9,175 bases of DNA. Origin: Candidatus Woesearchaeota archaeon (lineage in GTDB: Archaea > Nanobdellota > Nanobdellia > SCGC-AAA011-G17 > UBA489). Shown here piece after piece: positions 1 through 9,175 of this stretch. How positions within the stretch are numbered: the stretch's first letter is position 1; each line of letters starts with the position of its first letter. The stretch is from contig JAUXTV010000060.1 in NCBI GenBank assembly GCA_030679025.1, forward strand, positions 1-9,175. The letters are read 5' to 3'. The position numbers and the translations under genes were made by a program. The notes under the pieces were generated by a model. The model saw only the letters and a list, made by a program, of their open reading frames with translations. It was not told where the DNA came from and searched no databases.

Positions 1-261
1 GCCTGCTCTTCCAGGGACACAAACTTTACTGTCAAACTGTAGTTGTCTTGCAATGTCTACGCTTCCTAATGTATCAGAAGCTGCTGCATTTTGACCAACA
101 ACAATTGCTGTATTAGGGTTGAATTTACCCTTGTCTACGAATGGAGCTGGGTATTGATTTAAATCTGCTGCTGCTAAAGCTCCCATTATGGTTGCTCCAG
201 TCATAGCTACTCCAGCACCGATTGCTGCCATCTTTTTGATAGCTGTTCTTAATCTTTGCAT
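1..261 (-). CDS. S-layer protein, N-terminal part (3' end outside window)
   Basis: First 87 codons of a gene that runs off the left edge with no stop. The start is ATG at 261-259, seven bases after a perfect GGAGGTG Shine-Dalgarno, so the in-frame Met codons at residues 11 and 20 are unlikely starts. The protein begins with a basic n-region (MQRLRTAIKK), an Ala/Gly/Met-rich hydrophobic segment (about 11-30) and an Ala-Ala-Ala cleavage region near residues 30-32, followed by DLNQYPAPFVDKG. Residues about 51-74 read AIVVGQNAAASDTLGSVDIA, close to the AxVVVGxxAxxxDVxxAxDIAxxIG pattern of methanococcal-type S-layer proteins. Known role of the family: subunit of the paracrystalline cell envelope. 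The gene has its own promoter and a long leader, as expected for an abundant protein. The pattern also resembles cell-wall-binding repeats of the CWB2 type, which is the main alternative; the archaeal context favours S-layer. Confidence 0.8.
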   Translation of the reverse strand, partial: MQRLRTAIKKMAAIGAGVAMTGATIMGALAAADLNQYPAPFVDKGKFNPNTAIVVGQNAAASDTLGSVDIARQLQFDSKVCVPGRAG

Positions 262-496: not shown

Positions 497-919
497 TCAA
501 GAGCAAAGACGTAATTGAACCTCATAAAAGCCTCCTATAGCCGTAAAAGGATAAGAACTAACTACTCCTAGAGTACATTGTTCAAGACGAAGGATATTTT
601 GATCATTATAAAGCAAATAAAAGCTATATTTTTGTCCTTTTTTAAGAAGTATAGTAAATATGTTCTCAATCTCTTGACGGAGGACAGTACAAGCAGCAGA
701 ATCCTCAGAACAGGCTACAGCGTACTCTTGAAAAGACTTTCCTTGGATCGTAGTTAAGACTAAAGCTTGGAGAAGTCTAGTACTTTCTAGAGATGATCTG
801 CTATCAGCTAAAGTAGTAGACTTTGGTGTAACTGAAAACTTCAAAAAAAGAACCCCTAAAACTAAGAGAAGAATAACTATAACTAACAAGCCAACCATTT
901 CCATTTGACCTCTTTTCAT
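497..919 (-). CDS. pilin-like single-span surface protein (140 aa), last gene of the operon
   Basis: Function not known; described from sequence. The N-terminus MKRGQMEMVG is followed by one hydrophobic helix (about residues 9-26). R3-G4 then Q5 resembles an archaeal class III (prepilin-type) signal peptide cleaved after Gly, with Glu at +3 instead of the usual +5. The remaining ~110 residues would lie outside the membrane and hold four cysteines (C70, C77, C115, C139) that could form two disulfides; residues 78-115 contain a predicted-looking helix and a Tyr/Leu-rich strand. The start ATG (919-917) overlaps the TGA of the preceding gene (ATGA) and has AGAGGT six bases upstream. Length and cysteine spacing match the 177-aa gene before it, so the two are probably related subunits. 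A plain N-terminally anchored membrane protein is the alternative. Confidence 0.7.
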   Translation of the reverse strand: MKRGQMEMVGLLVIVILLLVLGVLFLKFSVTPKSTTLADSRSSLESTRLLQALVLTTIQGKSFQEYAVACSEDSAACTVLRQEIENIFTILLKKGQKYSFYLLYNDQNILRLEQCTLGVVSSYPFTAIGGFYEVQLRLCS

Positions 920-1449
920 CGGTAAACCTCTAAAGTTAGTCTGCCTAAAGTATACAAATCTTGTTCTGGATAGTAGAGAGAGACTACAGTAGATAATACT
1001 TGAGTGCTTCTAACAGTTGAAGGTTTTTGTTCATACAATATCCACTTAGAACAAGATCCAGGATAAGCAGGTTGTAAATAAAGAGAAGCAGTGCAATAGG
1101 TGGGTGAAGTATGTTGGGGGTATAACTCTTCTACAGATATTTTTTGAGTACCTAAAAGAACAGTATAGGTAGTCCTCTGTTGTTGAACTAGAGCTTGAAA
1201 GGGTAAGAACTTAGCAGTGTCCAAGCAAGGTTTGTCCGAGCAACGAAGCTCCGCTAGACTAGTAACTTTCGATAAAAAAACCGTGCTGTCTTGTTCTGAT
1301 AAGGTGTTTGCTTGCCCTTCTAAAGACTGAAAGAAGAATTTGGAATAGAGAAAAAGGCCTAAAAAAAGAAGTATGACTATAATAAACAAGACTAAAAAAG
1401 TCTCATTCAGTTGGACTTGTCCTTGTTTAGTAGAGGGTTGGGCAGTCAT
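916..1449 (-). CDS. pilin-like single-span surface protein (177 aa), GQVQLNET type
   Basis: Function not known. The protein has an N-terminal extension (MTAQPSTKQG) before QVQLNETFLV and a strong hydrophobic helix (about 18-35). K8-Q9-G10 followed by Q11 and Glu at +6 resembles a class III prepilin signal. Four cysteines lie outside the membrane: C70 and C75 (LRCSDKPC), C119 and C133. The C-terminus ends in strand-like VSLYYPEQDLYTLGRLTLEV. From memory, GQxQxNET plus this type of C-terminus recurs in DPANN hypothetical proteins. The start overlaps the preceding gene by 23 nt; TGAGGAT ten bases upstream and the absence of a later Met before the helix support it. Its TGA overlaps the next start by 4 nt, so coupled translation with the 140-aa partner is likely. 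Confidence 0.7.
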   Translation of the reverse strand: MTAQPSTKQGQVQLNETFLVLFIIVILLFLGLFLYSKFFFQSLEGQANTLSEQDSTVFLSKVTSLAELRCSDKPCLDTAKFLPFQALVQQQRTTYTVLLGTQKISVEELYPQHTSPTYCTASLYLQPAYPGSCSKWILYEQKPSTVRSTQVLSTVVSLYYPEQDLYTLGRLTLEVYR

Positions 1450-2395
1450 TGTGTTCTAAATCCTCATTGATGCTTTGTAAAGAGCGGGTTGTAGCATGAA
1501 GTAAGGTAGATTCTGTGGTTGTGGATAAAGTGCGGAATAAGGAAGCTGCTTGAGAATAAAAAGTTTGGCAGGAAGAGCCTGCGCCTACTTTCTGTTGCAA
1601 TAAAGTAGCCTTATGTTGATATAAGATTGCTAATTGATGTAATCTTGCTATTAATCTAGTGGTATGGCAGGCATATTGTGCTGGTCCAAAAAAAGCGCCA
1701 AAGAGATGAGCTTCACCATAGTAAGGATACTCCTTTTGTTCAGGATAAAGAGTAACTAGAGATTGGACAAGATCCACTTCCATGATTTTGATGGGTGGTG
1801 AGCGGATAGTCGCTAATAAAGTCGCAGGATTTGGAGCACGTCCTATAAAAACAAGAGTAGCACTTTGATATCCCTGAAGTTCTTGTTGTAACTGTTGCAC
1901 AGAATAAGAAGATACTGGTAAAGAAATAACAGGCATCGAAGTAGGTATGTCTAAAGAAGTTACAAAAGAAGCTGCTGAAGGTTCATAATAAAGAATGACT
2001 TTGGTGTCTTTAGGAATAAGATAATAGAGCATGTCTGCATAAAAGGGAAAATGCCAGGGTTTGCCTACTAGAGTATAAGGTTGTTTATTCAAGGTACTAG
2101 GGCTGAAAAGAAAAAGAGAAGTTGATTCTTGCGCTTTGTCTGTAAAAAAACTATCACAATCCATATGGACAGTTAGTGTGCGGGGAAAAGTAAAAGTCTT
2201 GCTGATTGCATCTGTAGTTCCGAGGCTGGAGAGTTGCTGTTCAAAAGTACGAAGAAATTCAATATCTTCAACAGTGCTCGATGTGTCGGCATGTCTTCCA
2301 GCCCAGAGGATAAAGAACAAAAGTAATAAAGCGCCGGCGATCGCTGCAAACATCCAAATAAATAATTCAGAAGAGACTCCGCGTTTGGACATCAT
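1427..2395 (-). CDS. pilin-like single-span surface protein (322 aa), KRGVSSE type
   Basis: Function not known; the largest of the five short operon proteins. The N-terminus MMSKRGVSSE leads into a long hydrophobic helix (about 11-31). Cleavage after G6 would put Glu at +4, close to the archaeal prepilin rule. The outer part starts with a likely amphipathic helix (about 42-60), then FTFPRTLTVHMDCD with C80, and a GKPWHFPF segment around W114. A middle part (about 125-220) has alternating strands and helices (VILYYEP, ATLVFIGRAP) that hint at a compact alpha/beta fold. Three further cysteines occur towards the C-terminus, the last at residue 318. ATG codons at 2395 and 2392 are both possible; the first forms an ATGA overlap with the preceding gene, and AAGGA lies six bases before it. 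Its stop lies inside the next gene. Confidence 0.7.
   Translation of the reverse strand: MMSKRGVSSELFIWMFAAIAGALLLLFFILWAGRHADTSSTVEDIEFLRTFEQQLSSLGTTDAISKTFTFPRTLTVHMDCDSFFTDKAQESTSLFLFSPSTLNKQPYTLVGKPWHFPFYADMLYYLIPKDTKVILYYEPSAASFVTSLDIPTSMPVISLPVSSYSVQQLQQELQGYQSATLVFIGRAPNPATLLATIRSPPIKIMEVDLVQSLVTLYPEQKEYPYYGEAHLFGAFFGPAQYACHTTRLIARLHQLAILYQHKATLLQQKVGAGSSCQTFYSQAASLFRTLSTTTESTLLHATTRSLQSINEDLEHNDCPTLY
1460..1466 (-). promoter_or_regulatory. Shine-Dalgarno inside the preceding gene, supporting the 177-aa protein start
   Basis: TGAGGAT lies ten bases before the ATG at 1449, inside the coding sequence of the 322-aa protein. It supports the 23-nt gene overlap rather than a later start. 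Confidence 0.5.
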
Positions 2396-2889
2396 AAACG
2401 TTCCTTGACATTCACTGCAATTTTATTGTCGACAACAATCGTTTCAATATATACTTGAAAATCATTCGCGGTCAGAACACATACTGGATTTTGTTGACCC
2501 TCCACAGTCAGATGATCTATGAAAAAACCAGGTCCTGGATTTTGAAATTTTTCTAAGGGTAAGACAAATAAGTTATTTTTTTTATCGCCTCGTAGCAGCG
2601 CATTTAAAACAGGATCACTGATGTCTCTCACAGGTTTATTAGAATTAAAAAAACAAATTTGATTAACTCCGGAAGGTACAGAAAGTTTTACTAATTTATT
2701 GCTGCCTACATCAAAGTTTGCGTAAGTTTGTACTTCTTTTTTAAAATCTTCAACAAAACTTAAAGTTGCTATCTTTTCTCCAGTATCATTGACGAGAATA
2801 ACTTGGCGAACTCCAAACATCAGCACAAAAGCCATCATGATAAGGGCAAAAATAAAGATGAAAACCTGTTGTGTCATACCTTTCTGCAT
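2392..2889 (-). CDS. pilin-like single-span surface protein (165 aa), KGMTQQ type
   Basis: Function not known. The short N-terminus MQKGMTQQ is followed by a Phe/Ile/Met-rich helix (about 9-27). K3-G4 looks like a prepilin-type cleavage site, but Gln (Q7, Q8) stands where Glu is expected. The outer domain starts with a helix (LSFVEDFKKEVQTY, 43-56), then LVKLSVPSGVNQICFF with C79, and ends with strand-like QVYIETIVVDNKIAVNVKE; the only other cysteine is C137, so one disulfide is possible. It starts 11 bases after the stop of the giant cysteine-rich gene, the only junction in the operon without an overlap. Upstream there is a run of five G seven bases before the ATG in place of a normal GGAGG, so translation may depend on coupling. 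Its stop overlaps the next start (ATGA). Confidence 0.7.
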   Translation of the reverse strand: MQKGMTQQVFIFIFALIMMAFVLMFGVRQVILVNDTGEKIATLSFVEDFKKEVQTYANFDVGSNKLVKLSVPSGVNQICFFNSNKPVRDISDPVLNALLRGDKKNNLFVLPLEKFQNPGPGFFIDHLTVEGQQNPVCVLTANDFQVYIETIVVDNKIAVNVKERL

Positions 2890-2900
2890 GTATAAACCCC

Positions 2901-5900
2901 CTAAACAAAGACACGATAAGATGCATCATTCTGGAAAGCATCACGACATGTCAAATAGTAGACATTATTATCTAAAGTAGTGGTATGTTCTCTAGTATTT
3001 TCTCCAGTCATGCGTACGCCTCTGCCAAAGGCAAATGCACCTGTGCTGGAGTATTCGCAAATGCTGTCTTCATGAGTAATAATATACAGTAAAGTACCCT
3101 CAGTATAAATTTGTGAAAGATGAGGTCCTAAAGTATCAATATTCACATTGAAAGTAGTATTGGTTTGTGCTAAATTGCCTGCAACATCAAAGCAGCTGAT
3201 GTAAGTAGTATAATCTCCAGGAACTAATGCTTCAAATTGTTGTTCATGAGTTGTAGAATTGGTTTTGCTAAATTCTAGAGCATTTACTGGTGTTGGATCA
3301 TTGAAATTATAACCACAAACTGCAACTCCTCCTTGTGCGCCTTTGCTAGTCACAACTTTAACTAGAGGATTAGCTATGAAGAATCTAGTGCCTTGTGGTG
3401 GAGCAACACTGGTAATCTCTAAAGGAATTGTTCCAGTTAATCTAAAAGGATAACTGTCAGAATTAACATTACCAACTTGATCTTTACAACGCATATAATA
3501 ATTGTTAGCTCTGCCAGCTTGAATATTATCTAAGAGAGTAGTGCAGTCATACAATCCATAATAAATTGAGCTAGTAGGTTGTTGTGAAGTAGTGCATGCA
3601 AAGGAGTTGTGCATTTGTTCAAACTCTGTGTCGATGTCATCCCATTTGCAAGTGCTAGGTTCATTAGTATAAAGAGTTAAAACAGTTGCATTAACACCTG
3701 TAGGAACATAAGCGCCATTCGCAATGCTTGTCGCTTCAATTACTGGTGCAGTAATATCTGGTCCAGGTTTAATAGCGAAGTTTATGTAGTAAGCTTTATT
3801 GTTTTTATTACCATTGCCATCTTGACAGCGGAGATAAACTGTATATTTTCCACCATTAGTTAAACGTAATGCTTCATCTTTAGCCATAAGTGATGAAAGT
3901 GCAAACGTCGTCTTGTGTTCTTGTGCAAAGATACCTTCTCCGAAAAAGTTAGTCATCTGATCATAAGTTTTACTAAGTTCAGTAGAGAATTTACATTGGC
4001 TAAATTCATCAGTTTTGATACCAAGAGATACTGCAGTGAAAGGTTCAATTTTTTGATTGAGAGTAAATCCTACTCCAGTTGCTTCAGTTAAAGTATATCC
4101 TCTTGCTAAGGCACTAGAATCAGCATGAATAATTGGTGAAGTAGCATCATTAGGGTGTGCATTGACACAGGCTTCTTGTTTAGTTCCTGCATTCAATAAT
4201 TTACAAGTTTGTCCTAAACTTCTACAACGATATTCACTGCATTCTTTTCCTTCTGCGGTACATTTCTCACAGTCTGCTCCGCCTGAAGGCGCAACCCAAG
4301 GTTGACAACTAATAGTAATAGTTTCAGTTTTCGTATCTGCAAGTAGAACATCTAAGAGACTATAAATGGTATACACCCATGCAATAATATTGAGTGCATA
4401 AAAGAATTGTCCCCCTCCACTAGCAGCAGGTTGAACAGTAGTTCCTTGTGTTGCTTGAAAACCTCCTTTTGGAACAGTAGCAAAGGGAGTTTGCCCAGCA
4501 GGAATATTAACAGTTGATAATCCTTGACCTGCTGGAGTAACTGTACTAATAGTTCTACCTGTGGCATCTACATAAGTCTTAGGAAGTTGTTGTGCAAGTT
4601 GGTCTGCCATCGCTTTTGGAACTTTTGTATATATTTGTCCTCCAGCAAATGAAACTCCATCACCTGCAACAGCAGGATAAGCCTGAGCACCAGCAGCAGG
4701 ACTAATAGTTCCAGTAGTAAAGCTTCGTCCAGCTAATTGTCCAAGGGTAGTATCACCCATAGCTTCTAAGCCAAAAACACCACTAGTGCCTGCAAAAAAA
4801 CCTTGACCTAGAGCTTGTCCTAAAGCCATCGTACCATAACCATAAAAAGCAATAGCAGTTCCAACAGCAGTCAATCCAATAACGATTAATCCTGGAGCAG
4901 CTTGTTTGAAAAACGCACCAAATTTATTATTATAATCGCTTTTTCCTCCTGCTGGAAAAACTAAGCTGTCATAATCTTCTACATCTGCAGAAGTTAAATC
5001 ACTATTATTATTAGTTTCTATGAATCCGCCTGTAGTAAATTTACCATTAATATTATACCATGCGCCACAATCACCTAGAGATTTACAATAATTATTGGTT
5101 GCTTGTAAATATTCTTTGTTCAAACATTCACAGTTGCCGACACATTTCCATCCAGCACCATCACCACTCCAGGTACTTCCTTTCAATAAGTCTCCGCCAA
5201 GTCCTGCCTTTTGCCAAACAACTTTGCATTCAGTATTGCCTTTGTCACAAGTTGCTTTCGGATCTAGTCCAGAAACTTTTGTCGTGCTTTCTCCAGGCCA
5301 GAACGCGATACCAGGAGAAACTAAAGGAGCACATTTGCCTTCAGTATTTTCTCGTTGTTTTTGTTCGCCTGCTGAAGTTTCAAGACGTTTGCCAATCCAG
5401 TAGCAGTCTCTTGCTTGAATATTCTCGCAGTCATATTGATTTTTGATATCAGGACAGCTGGAATGTCTGTTCGGTCTGCAGAGAGCTTCAATATACTCTC
5501 CTTGTCCAAGTGCGAATGATTGTTGAGTTCCTAGAGGAGGTTGCCCTTGAACACCTTGCACACAAATTTCTTCTCTAAAATCTTTACAAGGTTCAGTAAG
5601 TTCTTGTCCGTTGATACAAAGTTGTCTATAATGTCTGCTGCCGACAAAATCTCTGCCAAATCCAGGAGCGCCATCATAAGAACACCAGCTTTCTCCTAGT
5701 TTTTTTTGTCCACTTTGAGATGCAGGACTAGTAGGAGATTGTCTGATAGTGTTGCAGCTTAAATCTAAGCAAGCATAATCGCCAAACGTAGGATTAACAG
5801 TGCTTGGAGCTACACCACATAAAGTTCCTTTTGTAAAATCACAATTGCCACAGCCAGGATTATTTATATTATTGTTTTGATTATTACAGCTCTGTTCTTT

Positions 5901-6668
5901 CGGTAGAATAAAACCATTATTATAAGAAGCACGTTTGTCTGCGGAATAAATGTTTTCAGGATTGCCGCAGCTGTCAAACCAATACACTCCATCAGCGTTA
6001 GGTAAGCAGTCAGTATATTGTTGTGCTGCACATTCAGTGCCTAATTGTGGATTGCTGCAGAGTCTATTAGGATGAAATCCAACTAAAGGACCTGTCTGAT
6101 TAACTTCTAAAGTTGCTTGCACTCCGCATTCTGCTCGCGTAGTAAACGTACAGCTACCTTCAGAGGTAACACAAGCACCGCGTTCAAAACTGCGGCACTG
6201 ATTAATACAGGCAAACTCGTCAGTGATGCTTTCATCAAAAGTCATGTTGACATCTTTGAATTGAGAAGTAATTCTTTTACATTGGAGTTGTGTTACAAAA
6301 CTGCATTCATTGCTCAACACACAACAACCTTGTTGGCATTGAGGAATATCACAGCTTGCAGATTCAGTCCAAGTACATTGGCCATTAGATTGGCAAGTAA
6401 ATTTAGGAGTATTTTTGAAACAGCGTCCTGATTCTTGATCAAATCCGCAGCCTAATTTACAAAAACTAGTTTGGCTACAGCTTGTGCTTGCTTGTAAAGA
6501 ACCAGGTTTACATTGGCTTTGAGGAACATACTGACAATGATTATTATCTACAGTTTCTGAACAACAGACTTGCTGTTCTTCAGCAATTACAGGCGTCGGT
6601 GCTAACAAAGAGACTGAAAAAACAGATCCAAGAATCAAAAAAATTTGAAAGAGTGCTGCCCACTTCAT
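2901..6668 (-). CDS. giant cysteine-rich exported protein with Ig-like repeats (1255 aa), adhesin-like
   Basis: Probable cell-surface protein; exact role not known. Signal peptide: MKWAALFQIFLILGSVF then LLAPTPVIA, likely cut after A29. Residues 35-540 form a domain with about 47 cysteines, including CC, CxxC and GCGNC groups. Two hydrophobic segments (about 592-615 and 756-778) flank a cysteine-free Gly/Ala/Thr/Gln-rich linker. A 7-cysteine module follows (788-834: CQPWVAPSGGADCEKC, then ECSEYRCRSLGQTC), then four Ig-like repeats (about 844-971, 972-1080, 1081-1178, 1179-1255), each with an inner Cys strand and a YxxxCxD..GN-type strand. N-glycosylation sequons occur (NMT, NQT, NNS, NAT, NST, NTT). 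The start overlaps the preceding stop by 4 nt (ATGA), with AAGGTGAG eight bases upstream. Residues from 788 on are paralogous to the partial gene at 7478-9175. Structural surface protein, adhesin or filament-associated protein are all possible; I see no enzyme motif. Confidence 0.75.
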   Translation of the reverse strand: MKWAALFQIFLILGSVFSVSLLAPTPVIAEEQQVCCSETVDNNHCQYVPQSQCKPGSLQASTSCSQTSFCKLGCGFDQESGRCFKNTPKFTCQSNGQCTWTESASCDIPQCQQGCCVLSNECSFVTQLQCKRITSQFKDVNMTFDESITDEFACINQCRSFERGACVTSEGSCTFTTRAECGVQATLEVNQTGPLVGFHPNRLCSNPQLGTECAAQQYTDCLPNADGVYWFDSCGNPENIYSADKRASYNNGFILPKEQSCNNQNNNINNPGCGNCDFTKGTLCGVAPSTVNPTFGDYACLDLSCNTIRQSPTSPASQSGQKKLGESWCSYDGAPGFGRDFVGSRHYRQLCINGQELTEPCKDFREEICVQGVQGQPPLGTQQSFALGQGEYIEALCRPNRHSSCPDIKNQYDCENIQARDCYWIGKRLETSAGEQKQRENTEGKCAPLVSPGIAFWPGESTTKVSGLDPKATCDKGNTECKVVWQKAGLGGDLLKGSTWSGDGAGWKCVGNCECLNKEYLQATNNYCKSLGDCGAWYNINGKFTTGGFIETNNNSDLTSADVEDYDSLVFPAGGKSDYNNKFGAFFKQAAPGLIVIGLTAVGTAIAFYGYGTMALGQALGQGFFAGTSGVFGLEAMGDTTLGQLAGRSFTTGTISPAAGAQAYPAVAGDGVSFAGGQIYTKVPKAMADQLAQQLPKTYVDATGRTISTVTPAGQGLSTVNIPAGQTPFATVPKGGFQATQGTTVQPAASGGGQFFYALNIIAWVYTIYSLLDVLLADTKTETITISCQPWVAPSGGADCEKCTAEGKECSEYRCRSLGQTCKLLNAGTKQEACVNAHPNDATSPIIHADSSALARGYTLTEATGVGFTLNQKIEPFTAVSLGIKTDEFSQCKFSTELSKTYDQMTNFFGEGIFAQEHKTTFALSSLMAKDEALRLTNGGKYTVYLRCQDGNGNKNNKAYYINFAIKPGPDITAPVIEATSIANGAYVPTGVNATVLTLYTNEPSTCKWDDIDTEFEQMHNSFACTTSQQPTSSIYYGLYDCTTLLDNIQAGRANNYYMRCKDQVGNVNSDSYPFRLTGTIPLEITSVAPPQGTRFFIANPLVKVVTSKGAQGGVAVCGYNFNDPTPVNALEFSKTNSTTHEQQFEALVPGDYTTYISCFDVAGNLAQTNTTFNVNIDTLGPHLSQIYTEGTLLYIITHEDSICEYSSTGAFAFGRGVRMTGENTREHTTTLDNNVYYLTCRDAFQNDASYRVFV
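4259..4307 (-). other. 7-cysteine module, first half (giant protein)
   Basis: Encodes CQPWVAPSGGADCEKC, the best conserved block between the 1255-aa protein and its upstream paralogue (CEPWVAPSGGADCEKC). It sits directly after the second hydrophobic segment, probably at the outer membrane face as a stalk base. The DNA of the two copies differs at many synonymous positions, so this is an old, selected duplication and not a recent repeat. Confidence 0.6.
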
Positions 6669-7423
6669 GCTGTCGGCTCACCTTGTACCATAAACTGGAA
6701 GATATAAGGGCTGTCTTTAGTTTTCAAAATATACACTTTGTCAGGATAAGGTTTCTTTTTGTCAATAACATATTCTCCTTTATGCACCAGCATATAACTA
6801 AGTTGTTCAAAGTCTCCAAATTGACTTTCATAATCAACAATAGTTTGGCTCACTTCATAGAGTCTTCCTAAAGGATAATCAAAAGTTTTGCTGAAGCTGT
6901 CTCGTCTGACAACAATATCTTCTTTGCTGATGGTCAAAGGCATCTTGAGAGTGACTACAACACTGCTAGGTCCTATGGCTGTGACTACTTCTTGTTGGCC
7001 AATAGTCATATCAAATCCTTTTTTAAATTTGCCAATATTCAAGCAAGTTGCTAAGCCATCGCTGATAGCCTCGGAGAGTTGTTGTTCCATAGATGTAGTT
7101 GTAAGCATACGATTAGAGCAAGTCGCTTTGCCTCCTTGACTAAAACAAAGATAACTAATGCTTTGACCTTTGTAAGAAGAAAAAGTTCCTGGATTCAAAA
7201 CAAGATAACCACCTTGTAATCCTAAACGTTTAAGAGGCTCATCACTCACATCTTGTAAGCAATCTTTGATATGAGTCTCCAAAGGAACTAAGCGATCTTG
7301 AAGTGTGGTTGTAGTTACAGGTCCAAAGAAAAATTGTCCTCGTAAGTAAAATAGCAGAATGACTACTGCGAGAATAACTATACCTACAATAACAAATGCT
7401 GTTGTCTGTCCTCTTTTAGCCAT
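6665..7423 (-). CDS. single-span surface protein (252 aa), KRGQTTAF type, first gene of the operon
   Basis: Function not known. The N-terminus MAKRGQTTAF is followed by a long Val/Ile/Leu helix (about 9-27). K3-R4-G5 then Q6 looks like a class III signal, but no Glu follows, so processing by a prepilin peptidase is less certain than for its neighbours. The outer domain has a helix around 41-58, four cysteines (C55, C93, C102, C127), a GGYLVLNPG segment (71-79), then a longer alpha/beta-looking C-terminal half with charged strands (TISKEDIVVRR) and an amphipathic stretch around GRLYEVSQTIVDY. From memory this KRGQxTxF...GGY family recurs in DPANN archaea as an unnamed protein. It is first behind a TATA box. 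AGGAG (7439-7435) and GAGGT (7431-7427) lie upstream of the ATG. Its stop overlaps the start of the giant gene, which suggests the two products are made together. Confidence 0.75.
   Translation of the reverse strand: MAKRGQTTAFVIVGIVILAVVILLFYLRGQFFFGPVTTTTLQDRLVPLETHIKDCLQDVSDEPLKRLGLQGGYLVLNPGTFSSYKGQSISYLCFSQGGKATCSNRMLTTTSMEQQLSEAISDGLATCLNIGKFKKGFDMTIGQQEVVTAIGPSSVVVTLKMPLTISKEDIVVRRDSFSKTFDYPLGRLYEVSQTIVDYESQFGDFEQLSYMLVHKGEYVIDKKKPYPDKVYILKTKDSPYIFQFMVQGEPTA
6677..6684 (-). promoter_or_regulatory. Shine-Dalgarno of the giant cysteine-rich gene
   Basis: AAGGTGAG, eight bases before the ATG at 6668, lies inside the last codons of the 252-aa gene. Together with the ATGA overlap and the signal peptide starting at that ATG it fixes the start. 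Confidence 0.65.
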
Positions 7424-7477: not shown

Positions 7478-9175
7478 TTAAATAATGATTGTAATTGGTC
7501 CTATCAAATTCTCTTGAGCATCCCAACACAACACATAATAATGGATTTGATTTATAACTAAAATATGATCTTTGGTATTTTGTCCTTCTAATAACGTGCC
7601 TTCTGTTCTGCTAAATGTGCTGGAAGTTGTGGAATAGCTGCAAGTGCTAGGTTCATTTGTAAGAATATGGAGTGTTGAACCTTCAGTATAAAGTTGTGTA
7701 ATGCTCGGTCCTTTAGTATCAGTAGTCACAGCAAAAGTAGTTGTCTGTCGTGCAGTATTGCCAGCTGCGTCAGTGCAAACAATTGCATAAGTATAACTTG
7801 CTTGAGGTAATGGTCCAAAAGATTGACTATGTTGATTGCTGCCTGTAGTGAAAAAGGGAACAAAATTAAATCCTTCCTGTTCATAGGTGCAGCTTGCTTT
7901 TCCTTGTTCTGCTCCGCCTGCCGTAGTTACTTGTAAATTAGGAGATGCTGTTAAAATATCGCCTTGAGGAGTTAGAGAAGTAATTTGTAAAGGAGTTGTT
8001 CCTTGAAGGCTAAAGGGAGTGCTCTGTTGTTGTTCTTTGTTATTGAGATCTTTGCAGCGGAAATAATATTGTATTTTTGTGTTGTCCTGAATACCCTTAA
8101 GCATAGTGCCACACATGTATTCTCGAGCATGTAAAGGATTTTGACTGATTTCATCTTCACAGAGGAATAATTGTGTTTCTGGCATACTGGCATAGTTCTG
8201 ATCTTGAGTGCTCCATCTGCAATAACCAGGCTCATTGAGGTACATAGTCAAAGAAGTTTCTGTAACGCCAGAGGGAATAAATGCTCCATCAATCAAACTC
8301 TTGGAAAGAATTTGTGGTGGAGTCTCATCTGGCTGTCTGTTTATAGAAAATTGAACTAAGTATTCTTTGGAAGGGCTGTCAGATTTAGGAACACCGTTCA
8401 CATCTTGGCACCGCACATAAAAAGTATAATCTCTGCCAGGAGAAAGTGTTGTAGTCATCTTATGTTCAAGTTTGTAGCCGCTAGATCCAAAAGGTTGTGT
8501 CATAGCATCTAATGTAGGAGTATGTTGATCAGCAATTTTACATTGTGCTAATTCATCTGTCTTGATGCCGAAAGTAATAGGTAAAAATGCAGGAACTGCT
8601 GGTCGAATAATATAACCATTAGTCATAGGATTAATTCTAAATCCTTGCGTTAAAACTTCTGGCCAAGGAGAAATAATTGGTGAGTTCACATCATTCGGAC
8701 TTGCATGTGCGCAGCTTTGGTCTTCAGGTAAATATTTGCATGCTGCTCCTAAACTGTGACATCGATATTCTGTACATTCTTTCGAAGGATCATCATCGCA
8801 CTTTTCACAGTCTGCTCCTCCACTTGGTGCAACCCAGGGTTCGCAAGTAATCGTTGCTGTATTAGTTTTAATAGTAGCTCCGCCAACAACAAAGCTCCAA
8901 ATAACTGCTACAGCTATGACAATGGCTCCAGCTATCCATCCAATGCCGGGAATAAGAAGAAGTATTCCGCCTATCATCATGAGACCACCTGTAACACTTG
9001 TTCCTACATCTCCATGTGTAATACCATAAGCTAATAAAAATGCTCCGGCAACAACTGCTACAACTCCTGCTACTGCACTTACTGAACTTACAGACGCCGG
9101 TGCTGCACTTGTTGCTGTTCCTCCAGTGAATGCTGTAGCTACTGTACCTGCTGGTGCTGCTGTTGCTGCTACAGT
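7478..9175 (-). CDS. membrane-anchored Ig-like repeat protein, C-terminal part (5' end outside window)
   Basis: The frame is open from the right edge to the TAA at 7480-7478: 565 visible codons, no start. The Met codons at 8980-8975 lie inside a hydrophobic segment and are not the start, since the frame continues upstream for 65 more codons with the same composition. Visible order: an Ala/Thr/Val/Gly-rich stretch (1-33), a hydrophobic segment (34-52), a longer one (about 64-98, broken by IPGIG, so one or two helices), a 7-cysteine module (from visible residue 111: CEPWVAPSGGADCEKC, then ECTEYRCHSLGAAC), and four Ig-like repeats ending in GPITIII. All 17 cysteines after the membrane segments have a counterpart in the 1255-aa protein. 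Probable surface protein; whether it also has a large cysteine-rich N-terminal domain lies outside the window. No enzyme motif seen. Confidence 0.75.
   Translation of the reverse strand, partial: TVAATAAPAGTVATAFTGGTATSAAPASVSSVSAVAGVVAVVAGAFLLAYGITHGDVGTSVTGGLMMIGGILLLIPGIGWIAGAIVIAVAVIWSFVVGGATIKTNTATITCEPWVAPSGGADCEKCDDDPSKECTEYRCHSLGAACKYLPEDQSCAHASPNDVNSPIISPWPEVLTQGFRINPMTNGYIIRPAVPAFLPITFGIKTDELAQCKIADQHTPTLDAMTQPFGSSGYKLEHKMTTTLSPGRDYTFYVRCQDVNGVPKSDSPSKEYLVQFSINRQPDETPPQILSKSLIDGAFIPSGVTETSLTMYLNEPGYCRWSTQDQNYASMPETQLFLCEDEISQNPLHAREYMCGTMLKGIQDNTKIQYYFRCKDLNNKEQQQSTPFSLQGTTPLQITSLTPQGDILTASPNLQVTTAGGAEQGKASCTYEQEGFNFVPFFTTGSNQHSQSFGPLPQASYTYAIVCTDAAGNTARQTTTFAVTTDTKGPSITQLYTEGSTLHILTNEPSTCSYSTTSSTFSRTEGTLLEGQNTKDHILVINQIHYYVLCWDAQENLIGPITIII

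Follow-up and report, generated by a model that had tools for sequence, protein, structure and literature searches.

A conserved locus of five prepilin-like proteins and a giant cysteine-rich exported protein in Candidatus Woesearchaeota

Introduction

When the genes for five short prepilin-like proteins and a single giant, cysteine-rich exported protein stand in one run, what might the products build together? The question is raised by six genes at positions 497 to 7,423 of the window, i.e., the 9,175-nucleotide stretch analyzed here, which is the entire contig C208 (JAUXTV010000060.1, assembly GCA_030679025.1) of a Candidatus Woesearchaeota archaeon represented by a draft genome of 1.07 Mb and 83% completeness. 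A first-pass annotation of this DNA had proposed a filament or pseudopilus of several minor pilin-like subunits working with the giant protein. It is a central open question how DPANN archaea make contact with other cells and keep hold of them, and only a few of their surface proteins have been assigned a role. As a conserved surface locus of six parts, the cluster offers a putative partner pair (the short protein A and the giant protein G), a natural fusion of both, and a base (the short proteins B to E) that recurs with another giant, and it provides defined proteins to seek in tomograms, proteomes, and co-cultures. We tentatively propose, with somewhat less than even confidence, that A to E and G form one pilus-tip-like or priming-type surface complex, where A holds the giant and B to E are the base; this complex could possibly be used to hold other cells. 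No description of the cluster was recognized in the full-text literature searched, a search that left most subscription journals and all preprints outside its scope.

Gene Order and Prepilin-Type Signals

The six open reading frames (ORFs) listed by the first-pass annotation, of 252, 1255, 165, 322, 177, and 140 amino acids (aa), were present exactly where it had placed them, on the minus strand like all the features described in the window:

6665..7423, minus strand: A, 252 aa, prepilin-type N-terminus, four invariant cysteines, putative partner of the giant
2901..6668, minus strand: G1, exported protein of 1255 aa, cysteine-rich N-terminal half and Ig/FN3-like C-terminal half
2392..2889, minus strand: B, 165 aa, prepilin-type N-terminus, two conserved cysteines
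1427..2395, minus strand: C, 322 aa, prepilin-type N-terminus, the largest outer domain among B to E
916..1449, minus strand: D, 177 aa, prepilin-type N-terminus (KQG/Q), four invariant cysteines
497..919, minus strand: E, 140 aa, prepilin-type N-terminus, two invariant cysteine positions, the others less conserved

From A to E, consecutive frames overlap or are almost contiguous, in agreement with the translational coupling already suspected: A and G1 overlap by 4 bases, G1 and B are separated by 11, and overlaps of 4, 23, and 4 bases join B to C, C to D, and D to E, respectively. G1 contains 64 cysteines, B contains 2, and A, C, D, and E contain 4 each. None of the proteins A to E is covered by a Pfam or NCBIfam family.

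The gene order was compared between the window and the loci of 20 relatives, which were chosen because they matched G and had ample space on their contig. Among the genes found, the order A-G-B-C-D-E on one strand was kept in 21/21 loci, and the conservation in other DPANN genomes, which the first-pass annotation had put forward as a check, was thus observed. Orthologues of A, B, C, D, and E were found in 21, 17, 20, 20, and 19 of the loci, respectively, the count for A being derived from 24 matches with three extra copies left out. C, D, and E were not found in L038, where the contig ends, nor E in L043, where the fetched stretch has its edge, and several of the 21 loci carried extra genes inside the cluster. 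The four cysteines of A were conserved in 21/21 sequences and those of D in 20/20. Because the orthologues keep their order in all the loci and these cysteines are conserved, the locus is more than a chance arrangement.

The same order recurs in named metagenome-assembled genomes (MAGs) of Woesearchaeota and Pacearchaeota; 78 named loci were fetched with A, from the best 80 of 307 matches, and many of them are contigs of the first set. The best named match of A, with 93% identity, was in the Woesearchaeota MAG RIFCSPHIGHO2_02_FULL_36_21 (L070). At an E-value ≤ 0.001, 87 of the 117 relatives had a G match, in some cases a weak one, and G1 had 177 homologues. A was matched in 315/371 genomes of the phylum when long forms were counted; the 56/371 genomes with no A match include the compact single-contig genomes G107 and G210, of 0.6–0.7 Mb. 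A further sequence set, A3, combined the window piece with 17 of the 20 loci from relatives and with 47 homologues out of the 120 listed from the database.

The N-termini in the window read MAKRGQ (A), MQKGMT (B), MMSKRGV (C), (T)KQGQ (D), and MKRGQ (E), and in each protein this motif is followed by one strongly hydrophobic stretch. The motif [KR][GA] preceded the helix in 20/21 A, 16/17 B, 17/20 C, 14/20 D, and 17/19 E sequences, i.e., 84/97 in total, where the starts were partly chosen by rule and a few sequences lacking the motif may merely start too late. The D protein of the window has KQG in its place. These counts support the prepilin-type N-termini noticed in the first-pass annotation. 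The resemblance between B and C was limited to the N-terminal helix. A common origin of A to E beyond this helix was considered and rejected, as the best pair in the hhalign comparison without the helix only reached an E-value of 0.016. Against the sequences of solved structures, no match to the profiles of A, C, or G had an E-value below 0.05.

Pairing of A with the Giant Protein

In the named loci, G was the next gene within 3 kb of a short A gene in 83/89 cases, and in 74 of these 83 it was found within 100 bases; among the remaining six, three A genes are close to where the stretch ends and three are followed by another A. Pairing was analyzed with 75 of the 83 pairs, taking the first two pairs per locus. 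Distances in the tree of A and in that of the N-terminal half of G correlated with r = 0.748, the maximum of 1000 permutations being 0.148, and in loci with two pairs, swapping the partners within the locus lowered the tree fit in 12/12 cases. Moreover, A and G were found as a single ORF, hereafter A::G, of 1088–1306 aa, four times in other families of the class: in G206, G232, and twice in G174 (L154, L155, and L156). In these fusions, the match to the G profile begins at about position 273–301, and there is a single N-terminal hydrophobic segment, with no internal signal and no hairpin. The search of the 371 genomes gave further A matches in frames of 1196–1310 aa. The adjacency in 83/89 cases, the co-duplication, and the fusion in other families together argue, at the level of sequence, that A is the partner or fusion mate of the giant. 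In the fusion families, the giant hangs from the pilin-like helix of A, which shows how a giant can be held.

Long variants of A, of about 500–760 aa, stood directly upstream of other giants (1411–2208 aa) in seven of the nine loci with a long A (L126, L129, L131, L139, L145, L158, and L159), with a gap of about 530 bases in L129. L157 and L131 apparently represent a single locus. In L140, the long A is followed by the end of the stretch, and L144 has two consecutive long A genes close to its end. Anchors of the A type may be of general use for giant exoproteins. The giant downstream of the long A in L139 carries an NlpC/P60 domain.

Upstream of A, the window also holds part of a second giant:

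7478..9175, minus strand: G2, paralogue of G1, the C-terminal 565 aa of a further giant protein, truncated at the contig end

G2 showed 43% identity to residues 761–1247 of G1 (E-value 3.2e-102), and a full-length homologue of G2, of 1062 aa, occupies the same position in L032. Tandem A-G units were observed in related loci, e.g., G-A-G-A-G in L033.

B to E Beside Another Giant Family

A search for C covered 18 genomes, 11 of which belong to families with long A frames (the fusions were verified in G174, G206, and G232). C was present in 10 of these 11 genomes, the miss being G206, and it was on a contig other than that of the A frame. In the eight C loci fetched (L160–L167), C always stood beside a giant cysteine-rich protein. 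All eight giants belong to one family, contain up to 112 cysteines, and gave no match to the G profile; in four of them, the N-terminus was visible and signal-like. D and E were found in 7/8 and B in 6/8 of these loci. The genes C-D-E of L161 are oriented away from the giant and B, and L162 shows the arrangement A'-giant-B-C-D-E with the second giant family, A' being a 533-aa protein that only matches positions 1–76 of the A profile. The putative base of B to E is thus shared by two unrelated families of giants. The first-pass annotation missed the division of the set into a pair of A and giant and a separate B–E cassette. Further small pilin-like genes were seen downstream in several of the loci L160–L167.

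Features of the Giant Protein

Structure models were built for A and G1, with a mean predicted local distance difference test score (pLDDT) of 88.5 and 81.6, respectively. The C-terminal half of G1 gave tandem Ig/FN3 matches, and two central hydrophobic segments were located at about residues 590–608 and 758–776. A conserved pore made by this central hairpin was not supported, as G is split between its halves in some loci and the hairpin is absent in the four A::G fusions. In several named loci, including those of Pacearchaeota, G is encoded by two adjacent genes, one for each half, and each with a signal-like start.

A Proposed Model and the Points Against It

These data are consistent with the following model. 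A prepilin peptidase would trim A to E after Gly or Ala, as suggested by the N-terminal motif and the peptidase encoded in the genome. Each protein would be seated in the membrane by one N-terminal helix, with a disulfide-stabilized head outside, and the helices would bundle; hydropathy, the conserved cysteines, and the habit of pilins point to this topology. A would bind and anchor G, as their adjacency, co-duplication, and natural fusions suggest, through a contact that is predicted. The recurrence of B to E beside the unrelated giants suggests that they could be a base able to carry different giants. Finally, the complex would stand at the S-layer and display the Ig/FN3-like arm of G, reaching out near or through this layer, for adhesion or cell contact, either as a stub that stays in place or as a tip extended by pilus motors encoded elsewhere in the genome.

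Several observations weigh against this model. The glutamate of the archaeal signal, as quoted in the first-pass annotation, was not borne out: E or Q at position +5 was found in 0/21 A, 3/17 B, 0/20 C, 2/20 D, and 0/19 E sequences, i.e., 5/97. The model of A shows a membrane helix followed by a second helix, not one long pilin helix; no known head was recognized in it, and there was no solved pilin among the matches listed. An orthologue of B was not found in 4/21 loci (L037, L042, L047, and L049), and in G084 A is a 224-aa ORF lacking the last part of the profile. The PilY1 (neisserial PilC) domain was not found in G by a Pfam scan at an E-value ≤ 1, which gave Ig-like and other weak matches. 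The likely role of G in adhesion is predicted solely from its fold. Moreover, joint duplication of neighbors would produce matching A and G trees without physical contact. Lastly, the genomes G074 and G084, which contain the whole cluster, gave no FlaJ match at an E-value ≤ 1 and no T2SSF match over the cut-off at an E-value ≤ 10; a true lack of a motor there would be at odds with a pilus tip.

Peptidase and Pilus Motors

The genome that contains the window (G000) has a Peptidase_A24 match on C48 (E-value 2.6e-14) and, in a separate locus, a T2SSE ATPase and two T2SSF proteins, so the secretion machinery that the first-pass annotation had asked for is encoded in the same genome. This motor locus has two pilin-like genes of its own, as identified by eye. 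Among the 117 relatives, Peptidase_A24 was found in 105 and T2SSF in 107. Seven queries for FlaI, FlaJ, TadC, and the peptidase (E-value ≤ 0.001) gave no match in the cluster loci, which amount to 1,405,178 bases with overlapping copies included, and the same queries gave 48 matches in five motor-type loci, two of which were the sources of queries. The reading as a filament or pseudopilus is partly favored, by the signals, the conserved order, and the machinery in the genome, but not by the lack of motor or peptidase matches in the cluster loci, by the motor locus having its own pilin-like genes, or by the two-helix model of A. None of the three outcomes that the first-pass annotation had named as refuting was clearly observed.

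T2SSF (E-value ≤ 0.001) was absent in 10/117 relatives, seven of which have a G match and eight Peptidase_A24, one of them under the cut-off. G069, a 100% complete genome with the whole cluster in L148, had no FlaJ match at an E-value ≤ 1 and a T2SSF match of 4.5e-5; its second FlaI match (6.6e-8) is a 418-aa ATPase, adjoining a 475-aa membrane protein with a weak T2SSF match (4.2e-5), whose relatives bear T2SSF or the name FlaJ. Similar compact pairs of ATPase and TadC-like protein were found in G063 and G100, and an ATPase of this kind lies near a contig end in G091. These compact FlaI-like ATPases were missed by Pfam T2SSE, and they are located as follows:

L172, 1633–4425; L173, 1007–3817; L175, 864–3535: compact diverged FlaI-like ATPase (385–418 aa) and TadC-like partner (465–475 aa)
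L174: compact FlaI-like ATPase alone

The compact genes stand beside a gene for the STT3 oligosaccharyltransferase in L173, according to Pfam, and apparently, by eye, in L172 and L174. G098 contains a FlaI fragment, and the clusters of G036, G063, and G091 are cut by contig ends. G011, 100% complete and with no T2SSF, has giants without adjoining A to E, a diverged A, and a 102-aa piece of C at the edge of another contig, and is therefore not a clear instance of a cluster without a motor. G074 (92% complete) and G084 (89%) contain A, G, B, C, D, E, and Peptidase_A24, and their FlaI matches are only found in a paralogous ATPase of about 760 aa. The motor-bearing genomes G004, G029, and G097 have a similar ATPase of about 760 aa besides FlaI. 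In G074, this ATPase gene (L170, 289–4122) is interrupted by an intein (PF14890, LAGLIDADG_3), and frames of similar length were seen in G091, G100, and G002.

The G074 and G084 data, where the whole cluster and the peptidase coexist with only the paralogous ATPase, would fit a stationary display complex independent of motors, in which A to E and G are trimmed, assembled in the membrane, and never pushed out on a filament, and in two further genomes of that genus, G091 and G100, these queries did pick up a diverged motor ATPase. However, both genomes are drafts with 8–11% missing, compact pairs are present in G069, G063, and G100, the ATPase in G091, and a FlaI fragment in G098, and T2SSF alone was detected in 107/117 relatives. 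We consider this explanation unlikely. Motor independence was also tried as the main claim and abandoned, because G069 has a compact diverged motor pair and only the drafts G074 and G084 are left; their gap could reflect missing sequence or a further diverged motor.

The S-Layer Gene and Other Neighbors

The pilus-tip-like complex proposed here has an S-layer gene as a neighbor, 235 bases from E:

1..261, minus strand: beginning of a gene for an S-layer protein, truncated at the contig end (TIGR01564 S_layer_MJ, 2.5e-08; PF05124, 2.3e-05)

The first-pass annotation described the six genes properly but overlooked this one (261–1) and the truncated paralogue G2 (9175–7478). Of the 16 named loci whose ORF after E could be read, 15 had an S-layer-like ORF there, as detected with a profile built on ten S-layer proteins taken from the first set; ten further loci were unreadable at this place. 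This association, and the place of the cluster near the PCNA, TFS, and RpoL genes, which is kept in several families, would agree with an S-layer assembly or anchoring complex, where A to E and G hold or insert the lattice. Nonetheless, TIGR01564 also matches genomes with no G match, e.g., G054, G059, G066, G076, G081, and G100, no S-layer match was seen near the A::G genes of L154–L156, and the 235-base gap leaves room for a promoter of the S-layer gene itself. A function of this kind seems quite unlikely.

The pseudopili of type II secretion contain several different pilin-like subunits. The cluster likewise encodes several of them and motors are present in the genome, which brings up a pseudopilus for secretion or uptake through the S-layer, with G as the cargo or receptor. 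Since the cluster encodes no channel-like part, and the fusion ties G to A so that it is not simply cargo, we regard this as highly improbable.

Other genes were observed around the clusters. In L032 (15323–17360), the cluster adjoins the PCNA, TFS, and RpoL genes, a neighborhood conserved in several families of the order, and a gene for a trypsin-like protease (PF13365) with an N-terminal hydrophobic stretch (14450–15316) adjoins the giant in the opposite orientation. Nucleotidyltransferase genes lie within or beside clusters in L036 (6098–6879), L046 (11286–12321), L044 (4081–4695), L050 (14978–15915), and L040 (5021–6093), most with a small partner gene, as in modules of the MNT/HEPN type. 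A Fic-domain gene is placed between C and D in L035 (6424–7371).

Comparison with Known Systems

Cryo-tomography of two Nanobdellota described an attachment organelle with a cone, which in one of them replaces the S-layer (PMC11104419), and the proteins of the organelle are stated as unknown (PMC11420986). This organelle is a large envelope structure at the contact with the host in related archaea, and the proteins of the present cluster are only candidates for its parts. The compact genomes with no A match could be the kind of Nanobdellota that was imaged. That the cluster encodes its own kind of surface machine, with a modular prepilin-type base and interchangeable giants, that this machine is motor-free in some lineages, and that in Woesearchaeota and Pacearchaeota it is the equivalent of the host-attachment organelle or a component of it, seems very unlikely to us.

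Among archaeal type IV pili, the loci of the Thermoproteales clade 4G encode large exported proteins and several small, cysteine-bearing minor pilins, and S-layer-like proteins are associated with them (PMC4858521), which resembles the composition observed here. Those loci are described around an ATPase and TadC; in contrast, the present clusters gave no ATPase, TadC, or peptidase match with the queries employed. The A::G fusions can be compared with bimodular pilins, such as PilB of Streptococcus sanguinis, where a pilin module bears a large adhesive module (PMC8179133); however, A has no recognized pilin head, and the attached giant has about 1000 aa.

In bacteria, the complex of PilY1 and four minor pilins primes and tips type IVa pili (PMC7541494). 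As in that complex, several prepilin-type proteins are linked here to one giant exported protein, and the proposed assembly would be seated in the membrane and could display an adhesin, with the motor genes elsewhere in the genome. Unlike PilY1, G has no PilY1 domain in the Pfam analysis and has an Ig/FN3-like C-terminal half, A also occurs in fusion with the giant, the B–E base recurs with an unrelated giant, and the system is archaeal and Nanoarchaeota-wide. The likeness is therefore one of layout, not of homology, and the cluster is not classified as a member of that family. If the complex proposed here is real, the plan of the bacterial pilus tip complex would be carried into archaea by another route.

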